Source: Norana najaformis
Lineage: Eukaryota; Annelida; Clitellata; Crassiclitellata; Hormogastridae
DNA length: 64,000 nucleotides
Direction of reading: 5' to 3'
NCBI GenBank assembly: GCA_964023275.1
Contig: OZ029914.1
Location: 43,422,219 to 43,486,218, forward strand
Positions 21,902 to 48,400 of the stretch are shown here, in pieces. The first letter of the stretch is position 1; every line of letters starts with the position of its first letter. The notes beneath the pieces were generated by a model. That model worked only from the letters and a program-made list of their open reading frames with translations. It made no database searches and was not told the origin of the DNA. The position numbers and the translations under genes were made by a program.

Positions 21902-22456
21902 AATGAATATGCATCAGATCTAATCAATTAATATTCATCAGATATATTTAATTAATGATCCTGCTCCCATATATTCAACTGATGAATATGCATCAGAGGT
22001 ATAATTTAATAAATGAATATGCATAAGCTACGTCCAACTATGCATATTAATTGTTGACTCTTCATCATATGTATTCAATTGATGAATATGCATCAGATGC
22101 AATCAATTAATATTCATCAGATATATTTAATTAATGATCCTGCTCCCATATATTCAACTGATGAATATGCATCAGAGATGTATAATTTAACAAATGAATA
22201 TGCATAAGCTACATCCAACTATGCATATAATTGTTGACTCTTCATCATGTGTATTCAATTGATGAATATGCATCAGATGCAATCAATTAATATTCATCAG
22301 ATATATTTAATTAATGATCCTGCGCCCATATATTCAACTGATGAATATGCATCAGAGATGTATAATTTAACAAATGAATATGCATAAGCTACATCCAACT
22401 ATGCATATTAATTGTTGACTCTTCATCATGTGTATTCAATTGATGAATATGCATCA
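21902..22456. repeat. AT-rich satellite, three ~180-bp units
   Basis: Units start at about 21902, 22081, 22261 and (partial) 22442, a period of 179-181 bp with high identity between units 2 and 3. Each carries repeated ATGAATATGCATCA, a TTAATATTCATCA block, TTAATTAATGATCC and ACTATGCATATTAATTG-type text. The dense ATGCATAT/TAATTA content resembles POU and homeodomain recognition sites. It lies 0.4 kb past the SCAF stop codon. Confidence 0.92.
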
Positions 22457-22843
22457 GCCAGTCCACTTGTGGCTCCGATGTATTCAACCACCAGCAAAGA
22501 CTAATAAAAAAGTCCAAGAATTTACAACCAGACCATTCAAGAAATTCATGCTCTCCTTGCAAATTTAAAATCTGGGAACAAGAACAATTCAGACAGCTCA
22601 AAAACTAACCATTCTTAACAAGGACCAAACCCTAGATTACTGTCCGTTGTTTGGTTCATCCTGTCAAGTCCGGGGGGACCAGCTCTTACGCCGAGCGACG
22701 CTTAGTACATGAAAACAAAACTCGAAGCAGAGAATAGCTGTTTCTTCGAAGGCAAGTAAACTGCCAAACTCGGTCCATCGTGTTTTCGTCAAGAATGGTC
22801 TGATCAGTGGAGAGCACGCCCTAAAACGTTTACAGTTTTAGTC

Positions 22844-24075
22844 TTACTCAGCTACTGTTGGTTCTGCCATTGTATTACTAGTGAGTTCATTGGGTTGCGG
22901 TTGGGTTTCGTTGGCTAACGACATGCTTTCCTGCAACAACTGAGATGCTTCGACAACCACCTGTTCCAACTCCGCCGCCGAGACTTCGGGTTGTTCCGAA
23001 GCAGGCTGGTTGATTGGTTCCGCGCTGCTCCATCTGGTTTTCCTTGGTTTCTTTTCCACTTTGTCCACGACAGGCTGCTCCGGCTCTTTCGCCTCGTCGA
23101 ACCTGACAGCCTCTCCAGTTGTGTTTTCGAAGAATTCGCCCCAGGCCGATTTGGGGCGTCTCCTCTCTTCGCTGCTCCATCGGCCTCGCTTTGGACTTGG
23201 CTCCTCGTCACCCGCATCTCCACTCTCGGCCCACTGCCTTCGGTTTTCCTGGCCACTCCGGTCCCTCGCCTCTCCATCCTCTTGCCGCCACTGGCCCCCT
23301 CGTCTCCTGCCACCAGTCTCCTCATCATCACGGTTCCCTCTGTTCTGGCCACCCCACCTTCCTCCTCCTCTTCCTCTGCCATCCTCCCATTCCCTCCTGT
23401 TTCCACCGCCCCATCTACCACCCGACTCCACCTCGTCGCTTCCCACCCTATTCCTGTCACTGCCCCTCCATCCCCTCCGACCATGTCCCTCGTCCTCAGC
23501 TTCGTTCTCTCCCCTATGACTATCGCCTCTCCAGCGTCCTTGCCTCCGACCAGATCCAGCCGCTTCCTCATCCTCTTTCCCTTCTTCGGGCCACTGTTCT
23601 TCGTCCTTTTCAGTGCCTTCATTCCAACCCTCTGCAGCAGTCTCCCCTTCACCTTCTCCCAGATCAGGATTCTCCTCAAAATACTCCTCGTCCATTGCAT
23701 CCGGATGGTAGCCAAAGTCAGCACGACCCCGGGGGAACAGCGGCCTTGGTCCCCTTCCCGGGAAGGGTGGCCGACCAAACGGAGGCTCCATCGGAGGGCG
23801 GAAGTTCGGCATGCCTGGACCCCTTGGGGGGAATGGCGGCCTGCCTCGGAAGCCCTGAGGGGGCCCGTTGAAGCGAGGGTCATCTCCCATCAGTCCAGGA
23901 TGAGGTCCTCGAAGCCTGAAAGGAGGCGGCCGCATGCCCATCCGAGGATCTTCAAATGGAAACCGTGGCATCCTCATGCCAAGGGGGCCTGGTGGTCCCC
24001 GTGGTCCAAACCATGGCGGTCGACCGCCTCGCATCGGGGCACCAAAGCGTGGAGGGAAGCCTCGATTATTCGGAC
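22844..24075 (-). CDS. SCAF8: SCAF4/8 exon 18, terminal coding exon
   Basis: Acceptor TTGTTCTTGTAG, phase 1, stop TAA at 22844-22846. Pro/Gly-rich start (GFPPRFGAPMRGGRPPWFGP), a long Arg/Gly/Glu/Trp region (GGRWGGGNRREWEDGRGRGG) and a terminal RRRPKSAWGEFFENTTGEAV motif. The opposite strand has long mirror frames without homology. Confidence 0.93.
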
Positions 24076-27000
24076 CTACAAGAACAAAATACAAAGCATA
24101 TTAGAAACAAAACAGAACAACACTAAAGAACTTCCACAATCCTCAGACAAACATTGGTAAAACTAAAACTATTTTATCACGCTGATTATCCTAAATACTA
24201 AATACTAGAATGGGACAAAAACAAGTCATCAGTGAAACCACAGAGAATCCAGGAATGGTCTTATAGCTGAACTTCTGACCTAAAAACCAGTCTTGCATGT
24301 GTTCGTTCTGTCTGTATTTAGACATACTACAGGAGGCTTGTAAAGAAAGACCTGCAGTTTAGAGAGGTGCTTCATAGGCACTAGCTACATAAATCCAAAC
24401 AAACATACCACAACAAGCTAGTAATCAAGACACTTGAAATGGTTTGGCTACTGAACTGAGAAAGGAAGACTTCACGAGATTGGAGGCCTTTGAAATGTGG
24501 ATTTGATGGAGCATGGAAAAAGTTGGTCAGATGTCGAACGTATCAAATGAACAGGTGCTGAAGAGTTGGGGAAGGAGATCTATGATAGCTACAATAAAGA
24601 GGTGAGAGAGAAAATGGATTGGTCACATACTGAGAGGGGACTCACCCCTGAGGGCAGAATGGAGGGAAGGAGGACAAGAGGAAGACCCAGACAGATGCTG
24701 CTGGACTGGATGATGACGGATGGACACAGCAGACTGAAAGAAGAAATTAATCACCGAAAGGAGTGGCGTCATTGGACTTTTGAACCTGTCCGAGAGCAGA
24801 GAACCAGAAGAAGAGAAGACTGAACTGCGATGTGCAATTTGCCATCATTACACTACACTTTTATTACACTGCACAATACTTGATTAGATTGCCTACCCTG
24901 AAAGCCAAGTTCCTCCTCTCCGCCAGGTCCAGCCTCCATCTCCACTTCCCCACCAGTGTGTTCAGACTCCTCTCCTTCAGGAAGTTCCTCCAAGTCGCGC
25001 CTTCCCATTCTGCCTCCGGGCATCCGAGGCGCTCCACCGACAAAACCTGGCGGCCCAAACGGCGGCCTCGGCCTCATGGCCATAAAGTCGGGCCTAGGAC
25101 CACCATGTGGGCCACCCATTCCCCCAGGAGGCCACGGCTGTTGTGGGACTCCCTCTGGAGGTGGTGGCACACCAAGATCTGTCTCGCTGTGCTCTTCTTT
25201 TTCGTCCAACTCCTCGGGTGCTTTGGCTCCTGGCTCCGTCTTTGGCTCGCTATCTGGATTTTCTGCTTCGTCCCTCAGATCACCCGAGCTGTGAAAACGT
25301 GGTGGCGCAGGAAGAAAAGGCATTCTTCCAAAGGCGTTTGGTGGCAGGAACGGCATGGGTGGAGGTCGGAATGGCATCATTCCGGGTCTCATGTTGGGAG
25401 GCATTGGCCAAGGGTAGGCCATGCCGGGTGGAGCCGGCGGAAGCACGCCTTCCAAGGCAGAGCTCGTAGCAGTTGTTTCTGACCCTTTTTCTGACTCGCT
25501 AGTAGCTGGATCCTCCTGTAACAAAAATATCAATTCGATCAAACTAATAATTTTCCACTGGTAAATATAAACAAAAGAAACCTCATTCAAGGCTAAATTT
25601 TTATCAAAACCATCTACACCTGGTAAGGGCTTAGAGCTAATTATTACTCAGGAATCATTTTTTGCTGATCTGAAGACACATTTTCAGACCAGTAAGATGC
25701 CCATGCTTCTGAAAGGCTCTCAAAAAGCAATACACAGATGTTGAGCTACCTGCACAAAATCATACACGAATTTTTAATTAAATACCTCACAATTACATTA
25801 TTGAATATACCAACCTTACATCAACAGCCCTCTTCAGTCTAGAAACACAAGGATCTCTTTACCAGTAACAGCAATTCAGTAATCATCCAGTCCTTCTCCT
25901 TTCTCTGTGAAAAACCCAATATTGCATAACACCGTTGGAATCCCGGCACAGTATTGAAGGGTGACTAAGTGACAATGACACTATGCAATCAACTTCTCCA
26001 AGTGGACTCAGAACAATACAATCAGTACGAATACAAGGTTTTCATAAATACATATTTCCTTACTGATGATGCTGTAGAGCCAGGGGGCATGCCAGTTCTG
26101 GGTGGTGGAGGGAGAAGACCGCTACTCATTGGTGGCATCATTCCATGGATTGGTGGTGGTGGCATTCTCATCATTGGAGGCACGCCACCCGGAACCATCA
26201 TCGGCCGCAAGAAACCTTCAGAAAGAAAATAAGGGCTAGATTTTGCATATCCAGAAACAAAAGAAGGAAATGCTAAAAATGAGCAATATAATGTGGTTTC
26301 ACAAATGGTACAGTAAAATGAAATGCATCATTGATTACATGTCAACAATTGTAAAGAGGGCCTGAGGCTGAACTTATTTTGGTTAGGTTCAAATATGGGG
26401 CATGGTGGCCAACTGGATTGAGCACTCGGCTTGTAACGTGGAGTGTATGGGCTTGAGCTTCCACTTAGACGGTTACTTTGTAGGGACCTCGAGCAAGTCC
26501 TTCACTCACAACTACTTCGTGCCTCAGATTCAGATTTACTGACATTGTGCACGTAATAAATGCAATAATAATAATAATAATAATTCTGACTCAACAACTG
26601 GAAATCCACTCTTTAAACATTACAGTCATATGAAATACAAGTTTTTTATAAGATGCACCTGGTCTCAACTCCAGACACAGAGATGAACGTCTCGTGTCTT
26701 ACCAATTTGACCACCCTACCATTGCACTGAATTGCGAGGAATTCTGCTTTCAGCAGGACATAACGGAAAGGGAAAGTCAATTGATATCTAAAGTCAATTC
26801 AAATATTCAACTACAAGTTTATCAGGATCTGAGTTATATTTTTGTTTCACCAGCCCTAGTCCAAAGGTGTAAAAAACAGAATTTCAGGGCACTGAACCAA
26901 GAGTCACAGCTGTGTGTCTTGCATAGCTGAACAATAATTTATAGAAAGTTCGATTCAATGTCGACGAATTAAAGCTTACCGTGTGGAGGGGGCAGCAGAG

Positions 27001-30000
27001 GAGGCATAACTCCAGATGGCAGACCTGTCATGGGTGGTGGTATGGGTAGAGTGGGTGTGCTGTTTTCTGCTGCTGTCTGGCTGTTAGTAGCACTGGCGGC
27101 AGTGCTATCAGTTGCACTGATCGGGATTCCCGGCCCTGCTTGGGAATTTCCAGCAGTGGCATTTTCCTTCTCCTTGGTTCGCTCCTTCCTTGCACCTGGA
27201 ACAAAAGATGATGGAGTTTGTTATAATTTACTTGTGCACATGCTTTGGATTTCAGAAGGCACACTTACAGATGATGATGGCCGCCTAGCTTACATACAAT
27301 GCGATCAGTCAATTTCACTCTACAGGCCCAGGATTAAAACCCATGTTGCAGAGGTGAAAAGCTGTAGCATTAGCCACTTGAGCAACTCCAGGATTTCCTA
27401 ATGACCACGGGAATATTAATCGTCAAGCCTGCAATTTTAATTAATATTAAGGTACCAACAGTTACAAATACCTGCATGTCAGCAACGCCAATGTATTATT
27501 CGTTTACTGATCCCAAAAAGAAACTGAAAACAACTAATATACAAGTTTAACATGAAACATTGTCAGGTTATCAGGAACAAGCGGCATACCCAGAAGGGAC
27601 CAAAGTCCCGGTTAATTAGGACCACCAATTAATATGCAATATGGCAATGTTGTTATACGTACAATTTATCTACAACGTAGTGGTGTATGATGGTCTAGCG
27701 TTTAACATGCCCGACTGTCTACATAGGTTGGAGATGTAAATCCCAATAACAAAAGGCCATTTCAAAATGTCTGTTCACTGCAATAATGTCTTCTAGCAAA
27801 CGTGGCAACACATGAGTACACTGACTGTGCACTGATCAGCTAGTGAGGATGCAGACTGACATATGCCAAGGCAAAGAAAACAAAGTAGTCACACTTCACA
27901 GCTGCATCTTGTGATCAAATACACAGGTCAAATACACAGGTCAAATACACAGGTCAAATACTCAGGTCAAATACACAGGTCAAATACACTGGTCAAATAC
28001 GCAGGTCAGAACACAGGTGGACTGCTTCACTTCGTGCATACTTACTCTTGACCTGCTCTGGAAGTGAGTCCTCGTCCAAGAATCCTCCCTCGGCAAGATC
28101 ATCCACATTTTCCGGAATTCTGTTCCAAGGAATGTAGGACACTCCTTGCTCAACGTCCCACAGGTCCTTCAAATCAGACTCTTTCATTCCAACACCCATC
28201 GCCCATGCCACCTGAAGGAAACAGATAAAAAGACAAAGTTGGACGATTTAGTCATCTCTTGTACATAGCTATTTGTTTCTATAGCTTCCAAATAAATAAC
28301 AGAATTCAATGACTCGTGTGACCTGTATTTGACCTGTGTTCTGACCTGTGTATTGGACCTAAGTATTTGACCTGTGTATTTGACCTGAGTATTTGACCTG
28401 AGTATTTGACCTGTGTATCTGACCTGAGTATTTGACCTGAGTATTTGACCTGTGTATTTGACCTGTGTATTTGATCTGTGTTCTGACCTGTGTATTGGAC
28501 CTGAGTATTTGACCTGAGTATTTGACCTGAGTATTTGATCTGTGTATTTGATCTGTGTATTTGACCTGTGTTCTGACCTGTGTATTGGACCTAAGTATTT
28601 GACCTGAGTATTTGACCTGAGTATTTGACCTGAGTATTTGATCTGTGTATTTGACCTGTGTTCTGACCTGTGTTCTGACCTGTGTATTGGACCTAAGTAT
28701 TTGACCTGTGTATTTGACCTAAGTATTTGACCTGAGTATTTGACCTGTGTATTTGACCTGTGTTCTGATCTGTGTATTTGATCTGTGTATTTGACCTGTG
28801 TTCTGACCTGTGTTCTGACCTGTGTATTGGACCTAAGTATTTGACCTGTGTATTTGACCTAAGTATTTGACCTGAGTATTTGACCTGTGTATTTGACCTG
28901 TGTTCTGATCTGTGTATTTGATCTGTGTATTTGACCTGTGTTCTGACCTGTGTTCTGACCTGTGTATTGGACCTAAGTATTTGACCTGTGTATTTGACCT
29001 AAGTATTTGACCTGAGTATTTGATCTGTATATTTGACCTGTGTTCTGACCTGTGTATTGGACCTAAGTATTTGACCTAAGTATCTGACCTGAGTATTTGA
29101 TCTGTGTATTTGACCTGTCACCAGCAGTGATGTTTTTATCTTAATTGTTTTTCTAATGTTAATCTGTAGTTCTCAGCCACTGTTGGAAAATATAAAAGTG
29201 TTAAATACCATAACACGGTAATTATTATTGTTATTCTTATTATTTTTCCTCTTCTTATTCTTCTTACTATTGGCTATATTTACATAGCAACACAACCTAA
29301 TAAGCAAACATCACTCAAATAATTTTTTGTTCAATTTCCAGACAGACTCTCAAAAGTCTCAAACCCCGATTCTCTGCATGAAAATGCAAGCCTTCGATAA
29401 AATGTGATACTGCAGTGGATAATGTCTGAAACATTCGATTCCGACCCAGCATGGTTTAAAAGTTAAGGGTTGAGATAATATGTCTAATGACTCATCATCA
29501 TTTCACAGACAATCCGCTGATGATGGTGACTAGGAAACGACATTTACTATACGGGATAAACTCATCTAGGACACACACACACATGTTGGCATCGAATGGG
29601 AACCTGGTTTCACAGTTACAATAAAATCCAATTTAGCTGACCTTAATAGCATTTCCAGAAATTTTTGAGCCTTTCAGTTTGTCGAGAGCGCGTGACGCGT
29701 CCTTTCTGCTGCTGAATGAAACATACGCACAGCCACGCGGAGGAATCAACTGAAACCACCAACACATAACGTAAGGAAATGTACCATTATTTCCCCATTT
29801 ATTAAGCGCCATTAACAACTAGGCACCTGATTGCTCAAGGCCTCTCCCTACAAAGTAACTGCCTCAGGGGAGGATCAAACCCTTACTCTGCGTCACAAGC
29901 TGGGCATTCTAACCAATCGGCTACCATGTTGTAATGTAAGAATCACAGTTCTGTAATATATAATCTTAATGTAAGTACTACGTACATAAAGCTTGACCTC

Positions 30001-33000
30001 TTGATCACACGCAAGTAATATATGTAAAGTTTGCAAACTAATTAATTAATTAATTAAAATGATTCTAAGTAACTTACAAAGACGGCTGTATGCAAGAACA
30101 TAACATGCAATCAATCACAATATTTACAATTTTGCTCAAACACCCATGTTCACAAATTTCAAAACTACTAATAATGTAACAAATGCTCTCAGTCAGCTCT
30201 TACGTAAAAATGACCACGAGTGTATCAAAATCTTTTCTGCATTATTTTCTGCACACACTATTCATCGTCTGCTGAAACCGAAACTGAATATTAGTTCTAA
30301 AAGCAAAGTAACGTAAACACTTGGCTCCTGCACTTACATTGAAGGAGGTGATTTCTCCATATTTCAACATTTCCTCTTTCAGTTCATTTTCTTTGGTGTG
30401 CTTGCTAAGGTGTCCGATCCAAAGAGTGGTCGAACATACTAAGGACAAACAAACATATAACCCATGAACAATTCCATGACGAAATCATCCTAATCTTTGA
30501 AGTTATGTTAAAAATTATCAAAGCTTTGTCACTGAAAAAGATGCTACAAAGTACATGTGAATTAGGCGTAACCTGGACCTACCATACCATCATGCAGATC
30601 CATCACCCTTTACCACAACGTTACCCAACTGCACTAAAAAATCTTTCCTATACAGAGCACAAACTGAAGTTCTGCTTTATTTTTGTCAAAGGTAAGTTTG
30701 ACACAAGAAAGTCTATATAGTCTATGAACAGCGGCAATACGCAAAACAGATAAAGTAAGGTAATCTCTATCACAAACAGGCCACAGTAATTGGGAGTAAT
30801 TACTTCTGAGAAGTGATCACATTTGAATGCATGTCACAGCACATCAAACCTGAACACAGCAGCATGGTTCCTTGCATGGCTTGCCAACAACTGTCACTTT
30901 AAAATCCTTCCTTCTTGAAGTCCGTTCTTTTGCATTGACTGCACATCTCAACCTGTTTTGACCATTCAGTTATGCACGTCACCATCATCACTGACATCCG
31001 TCCACTGCACGTGTAGTCGTTTGTCAGTTTCAAACGTATAAATTAGTGTATAACTTAACTTGTTCAACAAGTAGGAAGTCAGACAAGTTAGCCAAGTCAC
31101 TGACCACAAAGATTGTTCTCTAAGAGCGGTGGTATTCCACGACTTCGTCTATCTCGATCTCGTTCTCTTCTTTCCCGATCTCTAATTCGATCTTGTGATC
31201 GAGACCTACAACCAGATAAAGCCGTTGTTTAAGGACAACTGATTAACTAACACCTTAACCATGAATCACACCAAAGCTCCTCTTCATGTGTTTCTCAAAA
31301 AGTTCTGCTCACAAGCCCAAGTTCTGTTAGAGTACGTTAAGAACAGCAAGTTTATCATTAATAAAATAAAAACAGGCTTTCAAGTAGAATCGAACTATCA
31401 CTAGTCATAAAAATGTTTAAACAATTTAGACTCTGCCTCTTGTTGATGGCCGATCACAACAGGATATTGAAGGCTAATTCACTTTTATCAAACTATAAAA
31501 CTATTTAAAATCCTCAGTGTCATTGTAAATGACAATTTATATCGAGTTTTACATCTGCTAGAAGTTAACCACGTGACACTTTAGCAAATAACACCTAATA
31601 ACATTACCTGTACATTGATTTACCTTGAACGACGACTACGATCTCGAGATCTTGACCTTCTTCTTCGATCCCGTGATCGAGATCGCCTAGATGAATCGTT
31701 TCGTGAATGTCCACGTCGACGTGGAGACCTGAATAGGAAAAAATTAAAAAATATAAATTACTATTGTTGAACAACACTGAACACTAGAAACTATTTACAG
31801 ATGTGAGGTTTCCACAGTTAACCAGTTACGAATTGTAGATCCTTGGTCATACTACAGCGTACACTCAAATATGATCAACTTTCGCACATTTACTTCCATT
31901 TTCTTCTATTTGTGTAGCACTGAAAGTTTCTAAGAGGCATTGTAAAATTTGTTTTTCTCACTATTATTTTTTAAAATTTTATTTTAATTATTTTAAATAA
32001 TTTTTATTATCATTACCGATTAGAAACTCTTTCACACCAATGTCTAATGCACAAGGCAACAAATGATGGCACACCAAAGCTAAGCCGTAATCATGTCAAT
32101 ATTCAAAAGGTCAGTCATGTACTGGTATTTGTCATTTCACAGGGTACTTCTTACAGAACAAAATGCCAAACACAATACAGATACATGGGAAATTTTTACA
32201 AGCAAAAATACACAAAGCATCAATCAGTTATACCAAGCACATGGCGGCTACTCTCAGTGCCACCACAAAACCCTTCAACATACAATTATGAGGATTAAGA
32301 TAACACATGGTTACAGCCTCTACAGAATTTCTTCAGACTACCAACGTCAAAAGATCATTTGGCTGAGACACCAACACAACCATAGCCATCCAACAACAAA
32401 ATACGTTCTGCCTGATGCGCAGATGAATTTAATTTAATTGAGTGCAGAGAAATAAAATCGCTTGACCTATCACGTGATCTTCTTCTTCTCTTGTCATCAT
32501 GCTCTCTGAAGCGGTTTCTGTCACGCTGCTGACTATTCTCCTCGTAATCCTGACGATAACGCTGGTCATCAGCTTGTTCTCTGTTCTCGAACACAGAATT
32601 CTACATCGAGAATTAACACAACACTCGTCAGATGACATCCTATTCAAATTCCATTACCAGTTCAGTTATTATTATTATTAACCTCTATATTTAAGATGCA
32701 TTATCAATTATTATTATTATTAACCTGCCTATTTAAGATGTGTTAACAATTATTATTATTATTAACCTCCCTATTTAAGATGCATTGCAACATCCCATGA
32801 GAAATCAAGGATGAATTATATAAGATACAGATTTTTACAAACATACAAAGCCCTACCAGGAACATACACAATGTAGTGAAAATGCATAACGTGAAGGTGA
32901 AGATGGCTTTGTAACATCTTTCTACATACTTGGACGCTCACAAAAGGAACTAGACATTCAGAACAACATGAACTAAATGAAAACGAAAATCCTCAACTAA

Positions 33001-36000
33001 AACATACATGACATGGGAGGACATTCTCATTTGCTACTAAATGGGAACCTTGAAGAGACACAATGTAAATTTAATGCACGAACGAATGACGTAACAAGAT
33101 GACTTAACTGTTATCTCACACAAACTAAAACACTACACACAGGAAAAATAGAAATTATGTAGCCTCGTACACAAGTTTGTAAGAACATAAGAACAATCTT
33201 CTTATTCTAATATTGTGTTCTGTACGTCTAATGCATTTGTGTGAGCTTCTACTTACTTCCTGTTCTTGCCACATGTTCTGTTGCATCTCGTAGCTCCCTT
33301 CATAGCCCTGTTCGTAGTCGCTTTCATTTTGCCATGCAGGTGGCTGCTTCCCATGGAAGTAGTCATGCCTTTCCGCTTGTTCTTCCGGTTGTGGCGGAAA
33401 CAACTGATTAGGATGGAGCTGCTGCTGCTGGAGCTGTTGGTGATAAGGCTGCTGAAGCTGTGGAATATCTGGTGCCGCAGATGCCATGTGGTATGACTGA
33501 AGCCCAGAGTTTTCAAGTGCATGCGGATGGAACTTGTGGTTAGGAAACATCGGCTCATCTGCTTGTGACTGAGACCTACAGGAGTGAAAGCCAGCTGACA
33601 CTTAATGCAAAGAATAAGCTATACATTGCAGACTTAAGCACCGTAAATTATTTATCTGCACTTCAACTTCGTGTAATGACCCTGGCCAATTTGTTTGCTC
33701 ACAAGTGCCTCTGTCACCAAGCAGTATTATTTGGTACCGGCATCAGCTAGGAAGTAAATGGCAAGTCCTGCGACGCACTGGCCCCATATCCAGGACCATG
33801 GGATTTGTCCAATGCTGGCTCAATGGCCTAAGAAAAGGAAATGAGCTTCTCCCTACATTCCTCATGGGACATGAGAGATTTACTTTACTTCAAATGGTTT
33901 AGGGCCATTCCGAGAGACTAGACCAAACACATAAAAGCCTAAATGCATCACAGAAAGACTCAGGTGCAGCATCTGGGAACATTCAGTACAGAATACAACC
34001 TCCTTATAGGAAAACATAATCATTAATGTTTACAAGTAACATTTGTATATATATATATGGTGTGAAAATTGGACAATTCACAAGATTCATAAAACACTAT
34101 TTGAGTACATAGTTTAGATAAATTTAACTTGAAATGGAGGGACATCAAACTACTCAAATTAAAGGACAATGGAAACAGAAACAAGTGGATAGAAAGGATC
34201 CACACAGCTGACCTCTCTCCAGGAAGGATTAATTCCAGCTAGAAAAAAAGGGATAGATGAATAAAACTCACAATTCTCATAAAATCTGAGATCCTACCTC
34301 ATTTCTTCTTCGACCCGACCTGACCGAATTCCTTTTCGGTTATCTTCGTCGTCCGATTCATCATAATCGAACTCAAGTAGACTCTACAATACAAAATTTC
34401 TTGGGAATTCAAGTATTGTCATCGCAACTTATTGGGCTTAAACTGTACCTTGCTACACATGAGCATCAATAAACTAGAACAAAATAAACAACAGGCACAA
34501 TGGTAAAACATTCAACTAAACTCTAACAGTAGAGGTAACAGCATCTAAACACATTACACTCAAAACCAATTTCCAAGCAACAGTAATAAGCTCATAGGAC
34601 AGAGCAACAAGAGCAAGGTAACAGTCACAAGCTATACAAGACACTCTCAATTTCATTCATTTGTTCATTCATTCATTCATTCAGAACATTTATATAGTGC
34701 CCCTTCAAGCAGTGTACCCCGAGGCGTATTTCAAATACAGGAACAATGCACCAAGAACCCAGTAAAAAGTTACAAGCTTATACAAGAAATGGATCCTGAT
34801 ACTGACATTGTGCGTGTTACAAGTGCTTTAATAAATAAAAATAAATAAATTAAACACCAAGACAGTGAACAATAACAGCTCTACAAAAACACAGATATAC
34901 AGCAAGACAGACAGATAAGTTGTACGCAACGGCAAAAAAAGAAATAGTAAACTATAAGACAGCTGCACAACAGCGTATGTACACGATAATACAAAAAAAC
35001 ACTGTACAAAGAGCTTGGTATGCAACAAGATATCTTGACAAAGAAACTGATATAAAACAGAAGCCACAGCGGCCTTCAAAAGAAAAGGACCAGAAGCAAG
35101 ACCTTGTTAAACAATGGCTCAGATTCCTGTGAGTTTTCCTCCGATCTCCGATCAAACTGTGATGCAGCGCTTCTGAGCATCTCGGTCTGAGGCTGTGGCT
35201 GTTCCATCTGCTGTTGCTGTGGCAAAGGAAGCGTTGGCTGCACCTGTGGAGGAGGAGGCTGAGATGGTAGTGGCACTGCAGACACGGCCGCGGATGAGGA
35301 GGAATTGGGTTGATTAGACAGCTGCTGCAACAGTTGCTGTGGCAACGACAGCGACCCTAGAGGCTGAGGCAACTGCTGTAGAAGTTGGTGCTGCAGCAGC
35401 TGAGTTATTGGCTAAAGATAGAACAAATTACAGCTGTGTGAAAGATCTGTCAAGTGTGGCACAGAGCCACATCAGTAAGGCACGGAGCCTATTGGAGAGA
35501 ATGCTCAGCTTGTAACACAGAGAGTATGGGTTCGAGCCCCCATGATCGAGGTGGTTACTGTGTAGGGACCTTGAGCAAGTCCTTCACTCTCAATTGCTTG
35601 GCGCCGTCGACTGATGTTGTCGTTAGATAGTGGCACCCAATAAATGCAGAAATAAAAATCATGGCTGATGTTTAACTTTAGATACATTTTAAAGTTTCAC
35701 TGGATCACAGCAAAGTACATAATCAAGTACTTCAAATCTACGTTCAAGATTCCAACTTGTCATAAATAACACATCCCTAGAATGCATGACAGTCTAGTGG
35801 CTACTGTGCTGCACCATCGATCGAGGTTTCAAACTCCCATCAGAGCAGAAAGGTATTTCAAGCTTTATGTTCCACTAGCACCATCTAGCAAACTCAGCTA
35901 TAAAACAAATACACTGACCGTACACTGGCAGTGAGAAGATCAGGCAGCAAGGGAGAGGACAGCCCACCCACACTCATAAGCTGACGTTAAGAAAATTAAG

Positions 36001-39000
36001 TCAATAACCCAAAATCTCCAAGCAGTCTATGTAGCTTTCAGTTTTATATTAAGTTTCCATTAAAAAGTAAAAAATTACTAGCCAACCTGTTGAGATGACT
36101 GAAGAAGCTGGACAACTGCAGTCAACACATCCGTCTGGACATTTGTCCCTGTCTCTGTACCATTACCAGGCGCTGACTGAGATGCGGCAGCAGAGGCTCT
36201 GTCGCCAATCTCAGCAAAGCTTCTGCCTTTCGTCTTTTCCGTCAAAGAGTCGTTCGTTGGTTCCTGGGCTGCTGGCAAAGATGAGTGGGCCATTTCTTCT
36301 TCATTTGAAGCCTCCGAGTGCTGCGAGTTCTGATTTTCTCCAAAAGACTCGTCTACGAACACAAACAGGTTTATCAGCTTAATTTAGTCATGCAGTGGCA
36401 CAACGGCACATTCACAACTGGTAATAATATGGGTTTTCATAACTACATAGCTAACTAGAACAGTCACTGACTGCTCCATGATGGCATAAACACGTGATGC
36501 TTTCTTGTGCATTGGATCGTCCAACTGGAACAATAGTAAAGTATCCCATATCCCGCAAGTGAGATGTGGGGAGGCACTTATTTCCTTTTCTTTAGGCCCT
36601 TGAGATGGCAATGGATAATACCCAAGGTCCTGGACAATGGGCCAGCGCATCACAGGACTTGCCGTTTACTTCCCAGCTTACACCGGTACCAAATTATATT
36701 GCTCGGTGACAGATTCTGGAACAGTATGCCGCTAAAAATACATATCATCCATATAGCTTAAGAAACACTTTCAACCTACCTAGGTCACATCTTATTACAA
36801 TTTTAGACCTGTCTGATAGCCAGACATTGTTAAAAGGCTCTATATAAATAATCAGCTCCATGTACATTTATACACACATGTTGTACATTTTTTTAAAAAG
36901 AAACCCAACAGAAACGAACAACATACTTCATCTGTCCAATTGCTCCTCAAAGCAAAAATCTTAAACAGAAACTACTTACCTCCAGTCGTAGCAGCAGCAG
37001 AAGATGCAGCTGTGGTGCCGCTATCATCATTCGATTCTGTCATGCTGAAGAGCTGCTGCAGTATCTCCGGTTGGAAGACACTATTCTTTTGCCAGAGATG
37101 CAACACTCGTACGATTTTGTTCTGGACCAACATTAGAAAAACATTACAAAAAGTAATGCAACACAAATTTGTGACTTAAGCAGAGTCTTCAAAGGCATTG
37201 CTTTTTGTTAAAAACTACTTTTAGTTACAAACTTTTAGTTTTTTAAAACAAATTACACCAAGGCATTAAACATTAAGCTGAATCGAAATGGTTTTAAACT
37301 AATGATTGAAATAAGTTCACAGAAGTTCATTTCACTGAAATATTACATTAACTTAAACTTAGTTAACTTAAATTCCTAAAATTACACACCACGTTAAAGC
37401 CAAGTGTATTGAATAAAGTGATAAATTACAAAAATTCACATATTTGGTGCTATTTAAACTTACTAGAAGCTACAGAATAAAACAGTTAGTCATAATTACT
37501 ACAAATTAATTCACTTACCAGATTAAGTTTCACGAAACTAATATGGTCTAATCTTGTACAAAGATCTTACTAAAAAATGAGTATAGCAGTACTAACATCA
37601 TTGAATGAGTGAAATTGGGATTGCTAGTACTCACCCTCTCATCTTCTGGGCAGGACACCAGATTCTGGAATGTGGCAACGATGTTCTTTGAAAAGCGCTG
37701 GGCAAAGACGTCTTTTTCGACCCCGAACTGATGACGAGACTGGCGGACAATCGAGTCGATGACGTACAAACCAGGAACTTTGTATTCAGCCCGACACTGT
37801 GACAAAAACAACCAGACATGAACTTTATACCTACCATACGATTATGAATTTTGACCTGCAACATACAGTTTTGGAAACTTTGCAAACTACATAAAAAGCC
37901 TAATCTAATGATCTCTATGGTTCTCTAATCATAATGTACAAGGCATCAACCAGTGGTTGCTTTATCATGATATCGTAATCGTAAAATTTCTACAGCGCCT
38001 AATGAAAGCTAAGTCACCGGAACCAGCTTATTTACAGGCACTCGGTCAACACAAAATTGGCAGGCAAGAAGGGTTTGGTTCCAAATCAAGATCCACGATT
38101 CAGGCAGGCAGGCAGGCAGTCAGACGGCTACAGTGGGTGGTATCTGGAATTGGATCTGCAGAGTAGACAAAGGGAAGAAGAGGAATAAGGGTAGAATCTG
38201 CAGAAGACGAGAGTTTAAGTTTTGATTGAAGACCTTTAAGAGCAGAATGCGTGGAAGTGCGACACCTTTACGAGCCACACAGCATATACTAAACTGAAGT
38301 TCTTAAAATGTGCTGCATAAAAGGTCCTAACCAATACATACATAAACGTATGCACATATAACGTCGGAAGTGACAATACAAGAACCAGTTTGAGCATTCC
38401 TACTTTTAAGATGAACTTTTCTACACTCTGGACGACATGCTTGTAGAACTTGACAGCCTTGATCGCACTCTTTGTGATGCGAGCCATCTTCGCCCGTGAT
38501 ACCGGCGGCTTTGACTCGTACAATGACGACAACTTAAATAAAGAAAACCATCAACCTACCATTTACATTCTAGATACGAGCAGTTCTGCATATTATTTGC
38601 AGGTCAGAAATTTAGCTTCAAATTTCATATTTACTATATTTTTTATTATTTATTTATTAAAGAACTTATCATGTGCACAATGCCATGGGTTGTTCTGCAT
38701 GACTCACTTACTTATTAACTGGGAGTTTGTGACCGCACTCTAATTTCTCTCCGTCTGCAGCGGCAATATTGTTTTTAAGTAGGGCGAGTGCGAGCGGTCG
38801 ATTCTACGGGTTTACCCAAGTTCGCACAAGCTTTAAATGCCTTCAACAAAAAGCTGTAACTTCATATAAGCTACAGATTTGATTTCCAGGCCATAATGTA
38901 TTGCTAAAACTGCAAAAGGGATCCAGATAGTTACTTCGTTTATATGTAATCGTTAAATAGATATTTTGAATTTTAGCACTCATGTAAGGTAATGTAACAG

Positions 39001-39295
39001 TAAATGCTCTTTTATTATTATTACACGTACATAATTTGGTTACTATTCTATTCATTAGCTATATTTTTGACAATGAGTCAAGTCCAGAACGATTTTCAGT
39101 CGCCGTGCCATATTTCGCTCTGCGTTTTAGGCCGATCAGCGGGACTCATAAACGCATAACCAATTTCGATGCATACTTCAATGGCGATGTAAAGCACAAC
39201 AGCGCCATGCATGGGCCCAGCGAACGCAGACCCACTATCACGCGAAACATAGTTAAAATACGTACCTCATTATTAAACGCTTTGACAGCTTCCAT
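22844..39295 (-). CDS. SCAF8: SCAF4/SCAF8-type CTD-interacting splicing-related factor
   Basis: Eighteen phase-consistent exons run from ATG at 39293-39295 to TAA at 22844-22846 and encode about 1458 residues, somewhat longer than the vertebrate proteins (about 1150-1270). Domains in order: CTD-interacting domain (about residues 1-140: MEAVKAFNNE, KFYKHVVQSVEKF, YKVPGLYVIDSIVRQSRHQF, RVLHLWQKN), Ser/Gln-rich linker, acidic YDESDDEDN, RS region (about 560-620), one RRM (CSTTLWIG as RNP2-like, RGCAYVSF as RNP1) at about 628-700, the family-specific LWDVEQGVSYIPW block, and a Pro/Met/Gly-rich then RG/acidic tail. Family members bind the phosphorylated RNA polymerase II CTD and nascent RNA in the nucleus and prevent premature use of early poly(A) sites. 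Invertebrates commonly have a single gene ancestral to SCAF4 and SCAF8, so the symbol is a family label. It converges on the unknown + strand gene. Confidence 0.95.
24440..24840 (+). mobile_element. LINE reverse transcriptase C-terminal relic
   Basis: Frame-broken translation gives LRKEDFTRLEAFEMWI, ATIKR-ERKWIGHILRGDSPL and MEGRRTRGRPRQMLLDWMM, then KEWRHWTFEPVRE. This is the classic C-terminus (RGRPR ... MLDDLM ... WRNW) of abundant non-LTR retrotransposon proteins in animal genomes. It is antisense in the last SCAF intron and inactive. Confidence 0.82.
24897..25515 (-). CDS. SCAF8: SCAF4/8 exon 17, Pro/Met/Gly-rich
   Basis: Acceptor TTTTTGTTACAG, donor AGG|GTAGGC, phase 0 in and phase 1 out, 206 codons. 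PPNMRPGMMPFRPPPMPFLP and an acidic EELDEKEEHSETD stretch. Confidence 0.92.
26064..26215 (-). CDS. SCAF8: SCAF4/8 exon 16, Pro/Met-rich
   Basis: Acceptor TTTCTGAAG, donor TCA|GTAAGG, phase 1 in and phase 0 out. Reads MMRMPPPPIHGMMPPMSSGL, typical of the low-complexity C-terminal half. Confidence 0.9.
26392..26585 (+). mobile_element. tRNA-derived SINE, family B
   Basis: GGTGGCCAACTGGATTGAGC (A-box-like), GGGCTTGAGCTTCC (decayed B box), GACCTCGAGCAAGTCCTTCA and CGTAATAAATGCAATAATAA. Intronic in the SCAF gene and antisense to it. Confidence 0.8.
26980..27195 (-). CDS. SCAF8: SCAF4/8 exon 15
   Basis: Acceptor TTTGTTCCAG, donor ACG|GTAAGC, phase 1 at both ends. Lys/Glu-rich start, Ala/Thr/Ser middle, then PTLPIPPPMTGLPSGVMPPL. 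Confidence 0.9.
27318..27392 (-). mobile_element. tRNA-like SINE head
   Basis: On the minus strand AGTTGCTCAAGTGGCTAATG resembles an A box and ATGGGTTTTAATCCTGGGCC a B box. There is no clear acceptor-stem pairing, so it is read as a SINE or tRNA pseudogene. Confidence 0.45.
27665..27860 (+). mobile_element. SINE-like family D, copy 1
   Basis: Shares with 35780-35960 the blocks GTCTAG(C/T)G, a central GTTnnAnnTnnAATCCCA-like segment, TCTAGCAAACnnnG, TACACTGACnGTnCACTG and GATCAG. It has a tRNA-like head. Confidence 0.5.
27914..28020. repeat. 13-bp minisatellite array 1 (CAAATACACAGGT)
   Basis: About eight units of CAAATACACAGGT, ending GGTCAGAACACAGGT. It is the reverse complement of the larger array at 28316-29118 and lies 25 bp beyond SCAF exon 14 on the donor side. 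Confidence 0.93.
28046..28211 (-). CDS. SCAF8: SCAF4/8 exon 14, post-RRM signature
   Basis: Acceptor TGTTTCCTTCAG, donor AGA|GTAAGT, phase 0 in and phase 1 out. Encodes VAWAMGVG, LKDLWDVEQGVSYIPWNRIP and LAEGGFLDED, diagnostic of SCAF4/8. The flanking introns hold 13-bp arrays in inverse orientation (27914-28020 and 28316-29118). At 166 nt, skipping it would shift the frame. Confidence 0.96.
28316..29118. repeat. 13-bp minisatellite array 2 (TATTTGACCTGTG)
   Basis: About 800 bp of TATTTGACCTGTG/TATTTGACCTGAG units interspersed with TTCTGACCTG and TATTGGACCTAAG variants. Part shows a higher-order period of roughly 125 bp (28680-29060). It starts about 105 bp upstream of SCAF exon 14, in the opposite orientation to array 1. 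Confidence 0.95.
29642..29749 (-). CDS. SCAF8: SCAF4/8 exon 13, RRM second half
   Basis: Acceptor GTGGTTTCAG, donor AAG|GTCAGC, 36 codons in phase 0. IPPRGCAYVSFSSRKDASRA includes RNP1; SKISGNAIK closes the fold. Confidence 0.95.
29795..29940 (-). mobile_element. tRNA-derived SINE, family B
   Basis: Reverse complement of TGGTAGCCGATTGGTTAGAA, GGGTTTGATCCTCCCCTGAG and GGCGCTTAATAAA. Intronic between SCAF exons 12 and 13, in the same orientation as the gene. Confidence 0.8.
30338..30438 (-). CDS. SCAF8: SCAF4/8 exon 12, RRM first half
   Basis: Acceptor TTTGTCCTTAG, donor AAT|GTAAGT, phase 1 in and phase 0 out. VCSTTLWIGHLSKHTKENEL contains beta-1/RNP2 of the RRM; KYGEITSFN is beta-2. Confidence 0.95.
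31105..31205 (-). CDS. SCAF8: SCAF4/8 exon 11, RS domain end
   Basis: Acceptor CTGGTTGTAG, donor GTG|GTCAGT, phase 2 in and phase 1 out. Encodes RDRERRERDRDRRSRGIPPL, matching the KKGLPPI junction just before the RRM. Confidence 0.88.
31624..31728 (-). CDS. SCAF8: SCAF4/8 exon 10, RS domain
   Basis: Acceptor TTTCCTATTCAG, donor AAG|GTAAAT, phase 2 at both ends. SRRSRSRDRRRRSRSRDRSR is a canonical RS tract. Confidence 0.9.
32467..32600 (-). CDS. SCAF8: SCAF4/8 exon 9, start of RS region
   Basis: Acceptor CTCGATGTAG, donor TAG|GTCAAG, phase 0 in and phase 2 out. Charged NRFREHDDKRRRRSRD leads into the RS domain. Confidence 0.83.
32660..32790. repeat. ~55-bp tandem repeat, about 2.5 units
   Basis: Repeats of TTATTATTATTATTAACCT, then CTATTTAAGATGCATTA and CAA, in the SCAF intron between exons 8 and 9. 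Confidence 0.85.
33257..33575 (-). CDS. SCAF8: SCAF4/8 exon 8, Gln-rich
   Basis: Acceptor CACTCCTGTAG, donor GAA|GTAAGT, phase 2 in and phase 0 out. Gln/Pro/Tyr-rich, with YHQQLQQQQLHPNQLFPPQP and YEMQQNMWQEQE. Confidence 0.88.
33655..33905 (+). mobile_element. SINE family C
   Basis: Contains CGTGTAATGACCCTGGCCAA, GGTACCGGCATCAGCTAGGA, AGTAAATGGCAAGTCCTGCG, CACTGGCCCCATATCCAGGA and GAAAAGGAAATGAGCTTCTC, and ends TTTACTTTACTT. Other copies lie at 36560(-), 42015(+), 43230(-), 52800(+) and 56760(-). Confidence 0.82.
34298..34383 (-). CDS. SCAF8: SCAF4/8 exon 7, acidic motif
   Basis: Acceptor TTGTATTGTAG, donor GAG|GTAGGA, phase 0 in and phase 2 out. SLLEFDYDESDDEDNRKGIR corresponds to the conserved acidic FDFGEDSE motif of the family. 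Confidence 0.85.
34645..34730 (-). mobile_element. Retroposon 3' tail with GAAT repeat
   Basis: On the minus strand: CGCCTCGGGGTACACTGCTT, GGGGCACTATATAAATGTTC, then (TGAA)n. This is the same tail design as the other CR1/L2-like ends. Confidence 0.6.
35103..35411 (-). CDS. SCAF8: SCAF4/8 exon 6, Gln/Pro-rich
   Basis: Acceptor TTCTATCTTTAG, 103 codons in phase 0. Encodes ITQLLQHQLLQQLPQ, a PSQPPPPQVQPTLPLPQQQQ tract and SEPLFNK. Donor AAG|GTCTTG is weak; it is chosen because FNK joins exon 7 as in the homologous FNKKLMDRFDFGED region. Read-through would add ten residues and stop. Confidence 0.82.
35470..35662 (+). mobile_element. tRNA-derived SINE, family B
   Basis: GAGCCTATTGGAGAGAATGC, GGGTTCGAGCCCCC (B box), GGGACCTTGAGCAAGTCCTT, and end CCCAATAAATGCAGAAATAA. 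Antisense in the SCAF intron between exons 5 and 6. Confidence 0.85.
35780..35960 (+). mobile_element. SINE-like family D, copy 2
   Basis: ATGACAGTCTAGTGGCTACT, GAGGTTTCAAACTCCCATC (B-box-like), ACCATCTAGCAAACTC and TACACTGACCGTACACTGGC, related to 27665-27860. Confidence 0.5.
36087..36352 (-). CDS. SCAF8: SCAF4/8 exon 5, linker
   Basis: Acceptor TGTGTTCGTAG, donor CAG|GTTGGC, phase 1 in and phase 0 out. Acidic/Ser-rich, ending in TDVLTAVVQLLQSSQQ, equivalent to the AAVAQILQS segment of vertebrate SCAF8. Confidence 0.9.
36560..36740 (-). mobile_element. SINE family C
   Basis: Reverse complement of the family C core: GGTCCTGGACAATGGGCCAG, CAGGACTTGCCGTTTACTTC, CAGCTTACACCGGTACCAAA. Intronic in the SCAF gene. 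Confidence 0.8.
36980..37121 (-). CDS. SCAF8: SCAF4/8 exon 4, end of CID
   Basis: Acceptor TTGGTCCAG, donor GAG|GTAAGT, phase 0 in and phase 1 out. NKIVRVLHLWQKNSVFQPEI ends the CID; a Ser/Ala/Thr-rich linker follows. Confidence 0.95.
37635..37796 (-). CDS. SCAF8: SCAF4/8 exon 3, CID
   Basis: Acceptor TTTTTGTCACAG, donor AGG|GTGAGT, 54 codons in phase 0. It encodes EYKVPGLYVIDSIVRQSRHQ, then EKDVFAQRFSKNIVATFQNL, the most conserved part of the domain. Confidence 0.96.
37965..38215 (-). mobile_element. L2-like 3' end, family A
   Basis: Begins with ATCGTAATCGTAAAATTTCT, the reverse complement of the family's TTACGA tail, then CAGCGCCTAATGAAAGCTAA, GGAACCAGCTTATTTACAGG and CAGTCAGACGGCTACAGTGG. 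In the SCAF intron between exons 2 and 3, in the gene's orientation. Confidence 0.82.
38404..38532 (-). CDS. SCAF8: SCAF4/8 exon 2, CID helices
   Basis: Acceptor TTTATTTAAG, donor AAA|GTAGGA, 43 codons in phase 0. It carries SKPPVSRAKMARITKSAIKA and VKFYKHVVQSVEKFILK, the core of the CTD-interacting domain. Confidence 0.95.
39266..39295 (-). CDS. SCAF8: SCAF4/8 exon 1 (start codon)
   Basis: Encodes MEAVKAFNNE, matching the first ten residues of vertebrate SCAF8 almost exactly, then donor GAG|GTACG. This fixes the translation start. The exon's 5' non-coding part is not delimited. Confidence 0.92.
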
Positions 39296-40590
39296 AGTTT
39301 CCGAAATATAAAATAAACTTTTAGTGATAGTAAACAGTCCAGAAACTAATCAATAATGTTTGTTTCAAACATGATAAACACGAAACTAGAATGCCAAAAT
39401 GGAGGAGAATTCATCTATTCGCTTGTTATTGTTCTTTCAATCGCAATCATCAAACCCAGGTGCGGTGGTCAAACGACGCTAAATTCGATTTATTATTAAA
39501 ACTTGTAGCACTATAATTTAATTGAGGTAACACAATAATTAGACACCGACGACCGTACCTTGAAAGAGAAAAACGCAGGTAATTGCTAAGGAGGGCCATA
39601 AAATGCGGAGTCCCCCACGGCTTTATTCTCCGCCCCTTACGTACGGAAATGAAACGATAGAAGTGTGATAGTGGGAAGATGCGATGCCCAGCATACATGT
39701 GCCTAGGTCAAAAGGACGCAGAGCCTTGTCATAAGACTTCCCTGTCCCATGAACTGAGAACGGCTGGTGTCACAGAGTAATAGCTGTAGAATGGTGGTGA
39801 AGACGAAGCCCGTGGTTAAGAAGGCACAAGGAAAGGGGTCGACTTCCTACTGATGGTAAAAGAACGAGCCCTGTTTTGAGAAAAGTCCATCCTCAGGACA
39901 TACTTAACTATCATGCGACCACGGATGCTACCGAAATAGAACTTTATAGTACTGTCTTTCCTAGGGAAGCGGCCAATCATGATACTTGTTGCAGAGAACA
40001 GTCATTGTGGTCAGAGGTGGTAGGGAATGGCCAATTTTTTGTTGAAAGTAGAACGAACAGTCATGTTAGTGACTTAGCGTAGAACTGGCCCGGAGTCACC
40101 CCCGCTCCGCGAAGTTAGATACAGACTAGGCCTACAGACCGTGACCGCCAAACTGTAATATTAGTTAAACTGAAGTATGGGGGAGGTACGTCTATCCATT
40201 ATGTTACCACGTGTTCACGAATGTGCACTTTTATCGACAGAACATAATTCGATGAATAGCTGACGACCTCTGATGAAATAGAAAAACAAGCCCTTGCATG
40301 AGCGGCAGATTTTATAGTTAATGTTATATTGCATCAACGACACCTGCAGACTGTAATTCTCTTTAAAATCTCACTTTTTGCTTCAATAAAGTCTATAATT
40401 AATTGCAAAATCGTAACTTTTGACCTTCGGTTATGTATTTTTGCTCATATAGGCTACAATTTGCCTCTTTTTAGTCTTTAGTTTATAGTGAGGTGTAATG
40501 TATTTTGGTAATAATTTTGGCATGTGTAATGCGCTCTTGCTTCCTCGTAGGACGTTATGGCTCACCATAGATGGACATTTATAATAATAG
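39296..40590. other. SCAF upstream region, no gene seen
   Basis: Contains the SCAF 5' UTR and promoter, which I cannot delimit: no clear TATA box or CpG-rich block stands out. The 68-codon frame at 39876-40082 resembles nothing I know. One TAGGCCTA octamer lies at about 40129. Confidence 0.4.
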
Positions 40591-45471: not shown

Positions 45472-48400
45472 ATGTATGTATGTATGTATGTACGTACGTA
45501 CGTATGTATATATGCATATATGCAAGTATGTATGTGTGTATTATTGTATGTATGTATTTTTGTATGTATTTATGTATGTGTGTATGTTTGTATGTATGTG
45601 TGTGTATGTTTGTATGTGTGTATGTTTGTATGTATGTGTGTATGTATGCATGCATGCAGGCATGCATGTATGTATGAATGACAATAAACATAAGTATGTA
45701 TGCATCAATACACTTAGTGTAGCTCACATTAAGTATGTTACAAATTCTGTGAGCTGTGTTCTGTCGTCAACAGTGGCTGTTGTCCTAGACATCACTTTGA
45801 AGTGGGGGCATTTGTCTGCCGCGCAGGAACGAGTGTGGCTCTAATTTCAATTTGCATTCTAATGACTTTCGTGGGCCACTTGGCACCTTCCATCTCAACA
45901 GCATCCGTAACCGCTGACAGCAGCTTAGGGCATAAGGGTCTATATCCGGGCTCTTTGGCTATTCCCGCAGAACTACTGAGCATCCCCCCAGGGACCTGCT
46001 ACAGCCGACAATCCTCCCTGGACAGGGACCCTTTTGGTGTGTATGTATGGACCCATTTCAATCATGCAAGGGGCCCCAGGCCTGACCTAGTCCATAAAAT
46101 TCAGCAATAGACCAATTAATTTATTTTAAGCATGTCCTGCACATAATAAACTAATTATAATATAAATAATAATAACAATAATAATAAGAATACATCACCA
46201 GCAGCCAACAAGAGCTTTGGTTATTATTCCTCATTCTATGCCACAATCAACAATGCTACGGTTGGTGTTAGTGACAGACTGGCCATTGTGCCCATGGGCC
46301 GTGGTCCCACATGGGTCGTGGTTCCTCATGGGCCGTGGTCCCACATGGGTCGTGGTTCCTCATGGGCCGTAGTTCCACATGGGCCGTGGTCCCACATGGG
46401 TCGTGGTTCCTCATGGGCCGTGGTCCCACATGGGTCGTGGTTCCTCATGGGCCGTGGTTCCACATGGGCCGTGGTCCCACATTGGTCGTGGTTCCTCATG
46501 GGCCGTGGTCCCACATGGGCCGTGGTCCCACATGGGTCGTGGTTCATCATGGGCCGTGGTCCCACATGGGCCGTGGTCCCACATGGGCCCCTTTGGTTAA
46601 AAACAATAACAGCAATGTTTGAGGCCTGTCATTCTTAATAGTATTATTTAGAAGAGAAAAAGGACGATTAAGAGGCAGCAGGAGAATAAAAACACGAGTG
46701 GGAGGAGAGGAAGAAGAGTAGGGGTGGAGTATGAACAAGGAGAGAAGCAGGAAGAAGAAGAAGATAAGAAGAAAAATAAAAAAAAGAAAGAGAAGAAGAA
46801 GAGGAAGAGGAAGTGGAAGAAGAGGAAGAAGAGGAAGAGGCAGGGACAGAGGAAGAGAGGAAGAGGAACAAGAAGAAGAAGAAGAGGAAGTGGAAGAGGC
46901 AGAGACAGAGGAAGAGGAAGAAGAGGAAGAGGAAGAAGAAGAGGAGGAAGAGGCAGAGACAGAGGAAGACGAATAAAAAGAAAAGGAAGAGTAGAAGAAG
47001 TCGAAAGAAGAAGAGGAGGAAGAAGAGAAGGATACGGAAAAAGAGAAGGAGAGCGAAGTTAAGTGAGACGGTTCCGGAAGGAACCCGCTTTCACTTCGAC
47101 GGACTTACATGCATCGCTTAAGCCGATGTATCGTTTTGTGTTTGATGTTCTTTTTGTTTTGTTCGTTTTCTTCTTTAATGTTCGGTGTTCCCGTCAGGTG
47201 GAGGCTTCGGTCGTTTGATTGGCAGGGGTCTTTAGTTGTCATCGATCGCATCATCTCGCTAGCCTCCTCTTGCATCCCTAAGCTCCTTTAGGCTTCCTTA
47301 GATGACTTTAGACTACTTTGGGCTTCCTTAGACCACTCGCCGCTGCGAACGAAGCGCAGGAAGTGTCGACAGGAGGTCAGCTACCGAAGATCAAATGCGA
47401 TTTCCACGTCGCCGACTTCCTTTGATCTATGCCGCCTGCCTAGGTGTTCAGGTCAGTCGAAGCTGACAGTGCGCGTGTATAAGTCTTGGTGCTTATCTTA
47501 TCTCGTCTTCAACCGTTCTTGACCCCAAGGAATGGCTGCACCGCGGACAATTTTGTGCCATCTGCTTCTGTCCCTCGTCTCTTGTAATAACTGGTCAAAC
47601 GATAGTTCAGTCCACGACTTGATGTTGTCTATCCATGTCATCTTGGGTCTTCCCCGAGCTCTGGGTCAAGGAATTGTGCCTTCGATGAGCTCTTTCTCTA
47701 GGCAGTCTCCCCTCTTCCGTAGCACGTGCCCGAAGTATGAAGTATTGGAGGTTTTTGGTGCATTTGATCCCTTTTATAACGCAGTCATTTCGACTGCATC
47801 ACATACAGTTACATGTCGTGGTTCTGTTTTAATTGTTTTAAGTGATCTTCAGCTGAACTAACAGTTGGGTTTCACGTTTTGGACGGAGTTGTAAACGTAA
47901 GCTCTGGATTTCTTCAGCTCCCAAAAATCTAAGCAGTAATCCTATTCGTAAACTCGAGATTTCTATAGCGCCCAATGAAAACAAAGCTTATTCAAAGGTG
48001 CTCGGTAGATACAAAATCGATTGCTAAGAAAGGTTCAGTTCTGGGTCTAGATCAAAGAGTTAGGCAGGCGGTCAGATGGCTACGGTGGGTGGTGTTTGGA
48101 ATTGCATCTGCAGGATAGATAAGGGGAAGAAGAGGAATCAGGGTAGTCTCGTGATAAAGAGCTCATTCATAGGCAAATACAAAAATCGATGAGGTAGGTG
48201 TGATCACGTTCGGTTGAAAGTGCAGAACCTAATGACCTTTAGCCTGGAAACAACCAGGATGTTTGTGGATGGTGCTTGGTATTGAAGTTGCGTGAAAAAG
48301 ATAATAACAGGGGGCGTTTTCATGATGCATGTTATATGAAAGGGCAGACTTCAATCGTCGTGGGACTGAAGGACATATCCCTCCCTATCTAGCTTAGACC

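Follow-up and report, generated by a model that had tools for sequence, protein, structure and literature searches.

The SCAF4/8 gene and its 166-nt exon

The window, by which we mean the whole 64,000-nucleotide stretch of Norana najaformis DNA that was analysed, is part of contig 2 in an assembly of 17 contigs and 608 Mb and carries a SCAF4/8 gene on its minus strand. We assigned the gene to SCAF4/SCAF8 because it begins with a CID that resembles those of SCAF8 and SCAF4: this domain matched 3d9i, which is named RNA-binding protein 16, with an E value of 7.1e-62, and SCAF4 (6xkb) with an E value of 1.5e-57, and it also matched the Pfam CID model. The chain 2diw, which is similar to 3d9i, bears the name SCAF8. 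Known SCAF4 and SCAF8 proteins have an RRM after an RS-rich stretch. The partial gene model includes an RS-rich block at 31727-31622 and an RRM (Pfam RRM_1, E value 6.9e-13); the RRM exons, when joined, encode 67 residues, and the RRM_1 match ends at residue 67. The exon that follows is 166 nt long, with its limits (28211-28046) set by an acceptor and a donor taken from the sequence. The donor pairs well with U1 (-7.5), and the acceptor was assessed by eye. Within 22000-40000, Rfam gave no match at the gathering score.

Features around the 166-nt exon of the SCAF4/8 gene, in window coordinates
Feature	Coordinates	Strand	Remarks
Upstream exon, encoding the latter half of the RRM	29642..29749	-	Donor AAG/GTCAGC
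Array 2, some 62 units of the array 1 repeat in reverse orientation, with 140-bp higher-order repeats	28324..29118	-	Upstream intron
Exon-proximal stretch of array 2	28332..28435	-	Where array 1 fits best without gaps (8 mismatches in 104)
Bracketed SCAF exon, 166 nt, phase 0 in	28046..28211	-	Residues VAWAMGVG...EQVK(S); immediately follows the RRM
Array 1, 8 units of the 13-bp CAAATACACAGGT	27914..28020	+	Downstream intron of the pre-mRNA
Downstream exon	26980..27195	-	Out of frame if joined straight to the RRM exon

Two arrays of one 13-bp repeat flank the exon in opposite orientations

The original prediction held that inverted 13-bp arrays lie on either side of the exon at 28046-28211, and both tandem-repeat detection and strand-wise matching of the unit confirmed this. 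TRF reported array 1 at 27915-28018 (period 13, 8.1 copies, 91% matches) and array 2 at 28324-29118 (period 13, 62.1 copies, 85%, with a 140-bp period as well). Array 1, taken as 27914-28020, lies 25 nt downstream of the exon's 5' splice site. Array 2 proper runs from about 28324 and not, as had been given, from 28316. When up to two mismatches were allowed, the unit matched seven times on the plus strand in array 1 and 48 times on the minus strand in array 2, with six scattered matches in the rest of the window and no units of opposite orientation inside either array.

The inverted arms, 27915-28018 with 28332-28435, are 92% complementary over 104 nt; among the 25 of 76 pairs listed, other registers extend over 70-98 nt at 88-95%, and seven ungapped registers between the arrays attain 85% identity. 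Three unit types are common to both arrays. One of them is the 12-bp variant CAGAACACAGGT, which occurs once in array 1 and 11 times in array 2, and which had rightly been predicted to be shared. Comparison of array 1 with array 2 gave a score of 89, fairly low among the scores obtained when segments of array 2 were compared with the remainder of array 2 (85-104), so the two arrays look like one lineage. As a separate observation, the repeat unit contains AGGTCA, the nuclear-receptor half-site (6 copies in array 1 and 46 in array 2); within the 13-bp unit these copies form direct repeats spaced by 7.

The sense strand of array 2 also contains dozens of CAG/GTCA sequences, which raises the possibility that the array draws U1 away from the 5' splice site upstream of it as a decoy, competing for U1 or promoting intron retention. 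We counted 41 such pseudo-donors, 12 of the form CAGGTCAGA (U1 duplex energy -6.9) and 29 of the form CAGGTCAAA (-5.6), and these equal or outdo the RRM exon's own donor, AAG/GTCAGC, which is a GTC donor and scores -5.4. The intron starts GTC AGC TAA, so a long-exon product would stop at once, at an in-frame stop (IKVS-stop) immediately past the upstream donor. However, GTC donors are a weak class, the duplex energy over 11 bases of U1 is a crude score, and the commoner class of pseudo-donor (-5.6) falls short of the strongest 5% of random GT sites (5th percentile of 122 sites, -6.2). We consider a decoy function improbable.

The repeat is almost confined to this locus

A search of the 608-Mb assembly with a two-unit pattern, allowing up to three mismatches, returned 45 matches, of which 44 lie at this locus and one on contig 7. 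The same dimer read backwards, which served as the control pattern, gave no match anywhere in the genome. With 44 of 45 matches at one place, the arrays are local relatives, as opposed to two members of a dispersed family that happen to lie close together. The genome-wide pattern speaks for a local event, and on this ground we rejected an origin by chance or from a dispersed repeat. The repeat had no exact match in viral contigs, a result that carries little weight for an animal repeat. We also rejected a transposon carrying the arrays: the stretch between them is single copy (one match in the genome), and 100-bp comparisons of the array flanks revealed no likeness above chance, as 172-346 of 500 shuffles equalled the four scores. 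Array 1 probably arose when the end of array 2 nearest the exon, where its best register lies, was duplicated locally in inverted orientation; we counted that position in favour of the explanation preferred below. A short-range template switch could have produced this arrangement, as could two inversions, and in either case no trace is left in the flanks.

To gauge how common such arrangements are, we used a comparison set of 20 stretches (200 kb in all) placed at round coordinates on six contigs and not drawn at random, each 10 kb long so that some 3-kb flanks were cut off. Together, window and stretches held 37 non-microsatellite arrays (14 and 23, respectively), after 11 further arrays classed as microsatellite-like had been left out. 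An inverted partner within 3 kb was found for only one of the 23 arrays in the stretches, an 8-bp TTCACTCA array, at 70%. In the window there were four of 14, namely arrays 1 and 2 plus two low-complexity arrays with partners at 84% and 80%. Four microsatellite-like arrays in the 264 kb had inverted partners of lower identity. Inverted pairs other than minisatellites are not rare: seven other pairs of at least 60 nt and no more than 3 kb apart occur in the 264 kb. One of these is inside the SCAF gene, where 33710-33858 is inverted relative to 36564-36713 (150 nt, 81%), and it encloses coding-looking blocks near 36380-36080 and 35410-35080.

The arrays are predicted to pair across the exon

Pairing over about 100 nt had been suggested as possible for the pre-mRNA, and RNA folding had been proposed as a check. 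Folding, which yields equilibrium predictions for naked RNA, gave 98-99 expected pairs between the arrays, a cross-exon duplex of about 98 bp that was abolished by flipping array 1. In a fold of the exon with both introns (2446 nt), 98.0 of the 99.7 paired nucleotides of array 1 partnered array 2. The figure was 98.8 or 98.5 when the base-pair span was limited to 600 or 1200, respectively, and fell to 37.9 nt at a limit of 400. After array 1 was flipped, the expected cross pairs numbered 0.0 in the 2446-nt fold and 1.1 in a 1.26-kb fold, and the minimum free energy of the 1.26-kb fold changed from -358.4 to -213.7; five mononucleotide shuffles of array 1 left 18-68 expected cross pairs and energies of -231 to -247 in this fold. 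As neither array contains reversed units, neither harbours an internal competitor for this pairing. The 5' splice site was predicted unpaired at 0.86-0.92 in the native sequence; in the flipped one, the value was 0.34 at a span of 600 and 0.76 without a limit. In the SCAF pre-mRNA, the arrays would thus pair as a stem of about 98 bp that loops out the exon together with its two splice sites.

A duplex of this length could also be a long double-stranded RNA substrate of ADAR or Dicer, giving rise to edited introns or endogenous siRNAs. Since just one of the 45 dimer matches falls outside the locus, such siRNAs would apparently find nothing to target other than the SCAF pre-mRNA, and we think this role very unlikely.

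Skipping of the exon would shift the reading frame

Complementary sequences in both introns flanking an exon, here 104 nt at 92% with 98 expected pairs, are also what defines the reverse complementary matches (RCMs) of C. elegans, and through the RCM mechanism the predicted stem would favour a degree of back-splicing at the 166-nt exon as well as a degree of skipping. An exon circle would measure 166 nt. A frameshift right after the RRM had been predicted for the skipped form, and the reading frames agree: joining the flanking exons connects ...NAIK to VQGRSEP..., and 55 shifted residues are followed by a stop (TGA at 27030-27028), with another 48 nt of the downstream exon still to come. Coding-looking blocks, identified by eye, lie further downstream, so by the usual rule NMD of the skipped mRNA is to be expected; the frameshifted message should be prone to this fate.

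Passages from published papers, cited here by accession, place the proposed mechanism among known systems. According to PMC8330042, when one RCM arm was deleted in C. elegans, six of six circRNAs fell to extremely low levels or could no longer be detected, and RCMs promote exon skipping too, which supports the claim of the original prediction that inverted intronic matches promote circularisation or skipping in general. The RCMs described there (zip-2 and others) resemble the present case in having complementary sequences in both introns around one or more exons; in contrast, tandem arrays form the arms here and can pair in several alternative registers, and any product is a prediction. Inverted Alu pairs in humans (PMC11263572) are similar in that one repeat lies in opposite orientations in adjacent introns and its copies pair across exons, but Alus are a dispersed family, whereas the SCAF array repeat is essentially confined to one locus, and the dispersal that an Alu-like inverted pair would entail was not seen (44 of 45 dimer matches at the locus). 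According to a passage of the review PMC12703386, circRNA formation is aided by inverted tandem repeats within introns, for which about 35 bp is enough, and over-stable pairing can make circles less likely. We liken these repeats to the SCAF arrays, though the term may be loosely used, as one of the two references given there for over-stability concerns dinoflagellate tandem genes. In S. pombe, circularisation depends strongly on exon length, and the authors of that work remark that inverted repeats are insufficient in mammals (PMC4479058); because the 166-nt exon is short, we counted the length effect against our preferred explanation. A human circular RNA, circSCAF8 (PMC9163066), takes its name from the homologous gene. 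In the titles and abstract openings of part of the literature on tandem repeats, VNTRs or inverted minisatellites in circRNA biogenesis, we found no minisatellite pair bracketing an exon, and a search of the mollusc circRNA literature for 'flanking introns' found nothing. The mechanism, a known cause of back-splicing and exon skipping, would be ordinary and the arms unusual, a minisatellite that is private to the locus and occurs there once in either orientation.

The best explanation, which we would neither back nor bet against, is that a locus-private minisatellite in both orientations forms a cross-exon stem and thereby causes some back-splicing and some skipping. The arrangement has the right anatomy, which does not assure a product, and the chances that a circle or a skipped product is detectable are about even. 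We also counted in favour of this explanation the single inverted partner among the 23 comparison arrays, and against it the drop in pairing at a span of 400, the cross pairs left by shuffled copies of array 1, the risk of over-stable pairing and the inverted partners of other arrays. Its main competitor is a neutral minisatellite, that is, a local inverted intronic copy with no measurable effect whose introns are spliced before pairing or despite it. That account has a substantial chance of being right, short of probable. The array is private and has 140-bp higher-order repeats, the donor of the 166-nt exon pairs well with U1, compensatory change was not seen, and a further inverted pair (81%) lies in the SCAF gene with six more elsewhere in the 264 kb. 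Against neutrality, the predicted duplex is long, close, free of reversed units and very stable. The private variants of array 1 are uncompensated mismatches in the best registers, so selection on pairing is not visible.

An off-switch had also been proposed, a reading that needs regulated skipping. The good U1 pairing of the exon's donor and the lack of a sign of selection on the arrays did not bear it out, and a selected switch is unlikely. Taken with the shortness of the exon and a duplex that may be over-stable, these same observations point to a low-level or neutral by-product; if the circle or skipped form is made at all, it is probably at low level and not as a selected switch. A more far-reaching version begins from SCAF, an anti-termination factor. 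In it, a minisatellite duplicated into both orientations would have built a length-variable RNA switch in one step, the copy number of the arrays (with the 8 units of array 1 as the limiting side) would set the share of SCAF mRNA diverted to the circle and the skipped form, and alleles differing in repeat length would thereby adjust premature 3'-end formation transcriptome-wide. We regard this as a long shot. The string 'autoregul' has no occurrence in the portion of PMC6579486 that forms its main text.

If the hairpin acts, this locus would be a clean natural case for the origin of exon-bracketing complementarity, with a private repeat, a local inversion, an exon and a testable product, one of each, and cross-exon hairpins would not need to derive from dispersed transposons. 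If it is inactive, the locus would be a useful negative control in which about 98 bp of predicted complementarity is ignored by splicing.

Other features of the window

Three further features lie elsewhere in the window. A perfect (ATCC)212 microsatellite occupies 53171-54018 (848 bp, 100% matches), and a 17-bp array of CATGGGCCGTGGTCCCA, whose unit is apparently partly self-complementary, occupies 46293-46589. On the minus strand, open frames at 58031-57351 and 43084-42257 resemble, by eye, pieces of class A G-protein-coupled receptors.
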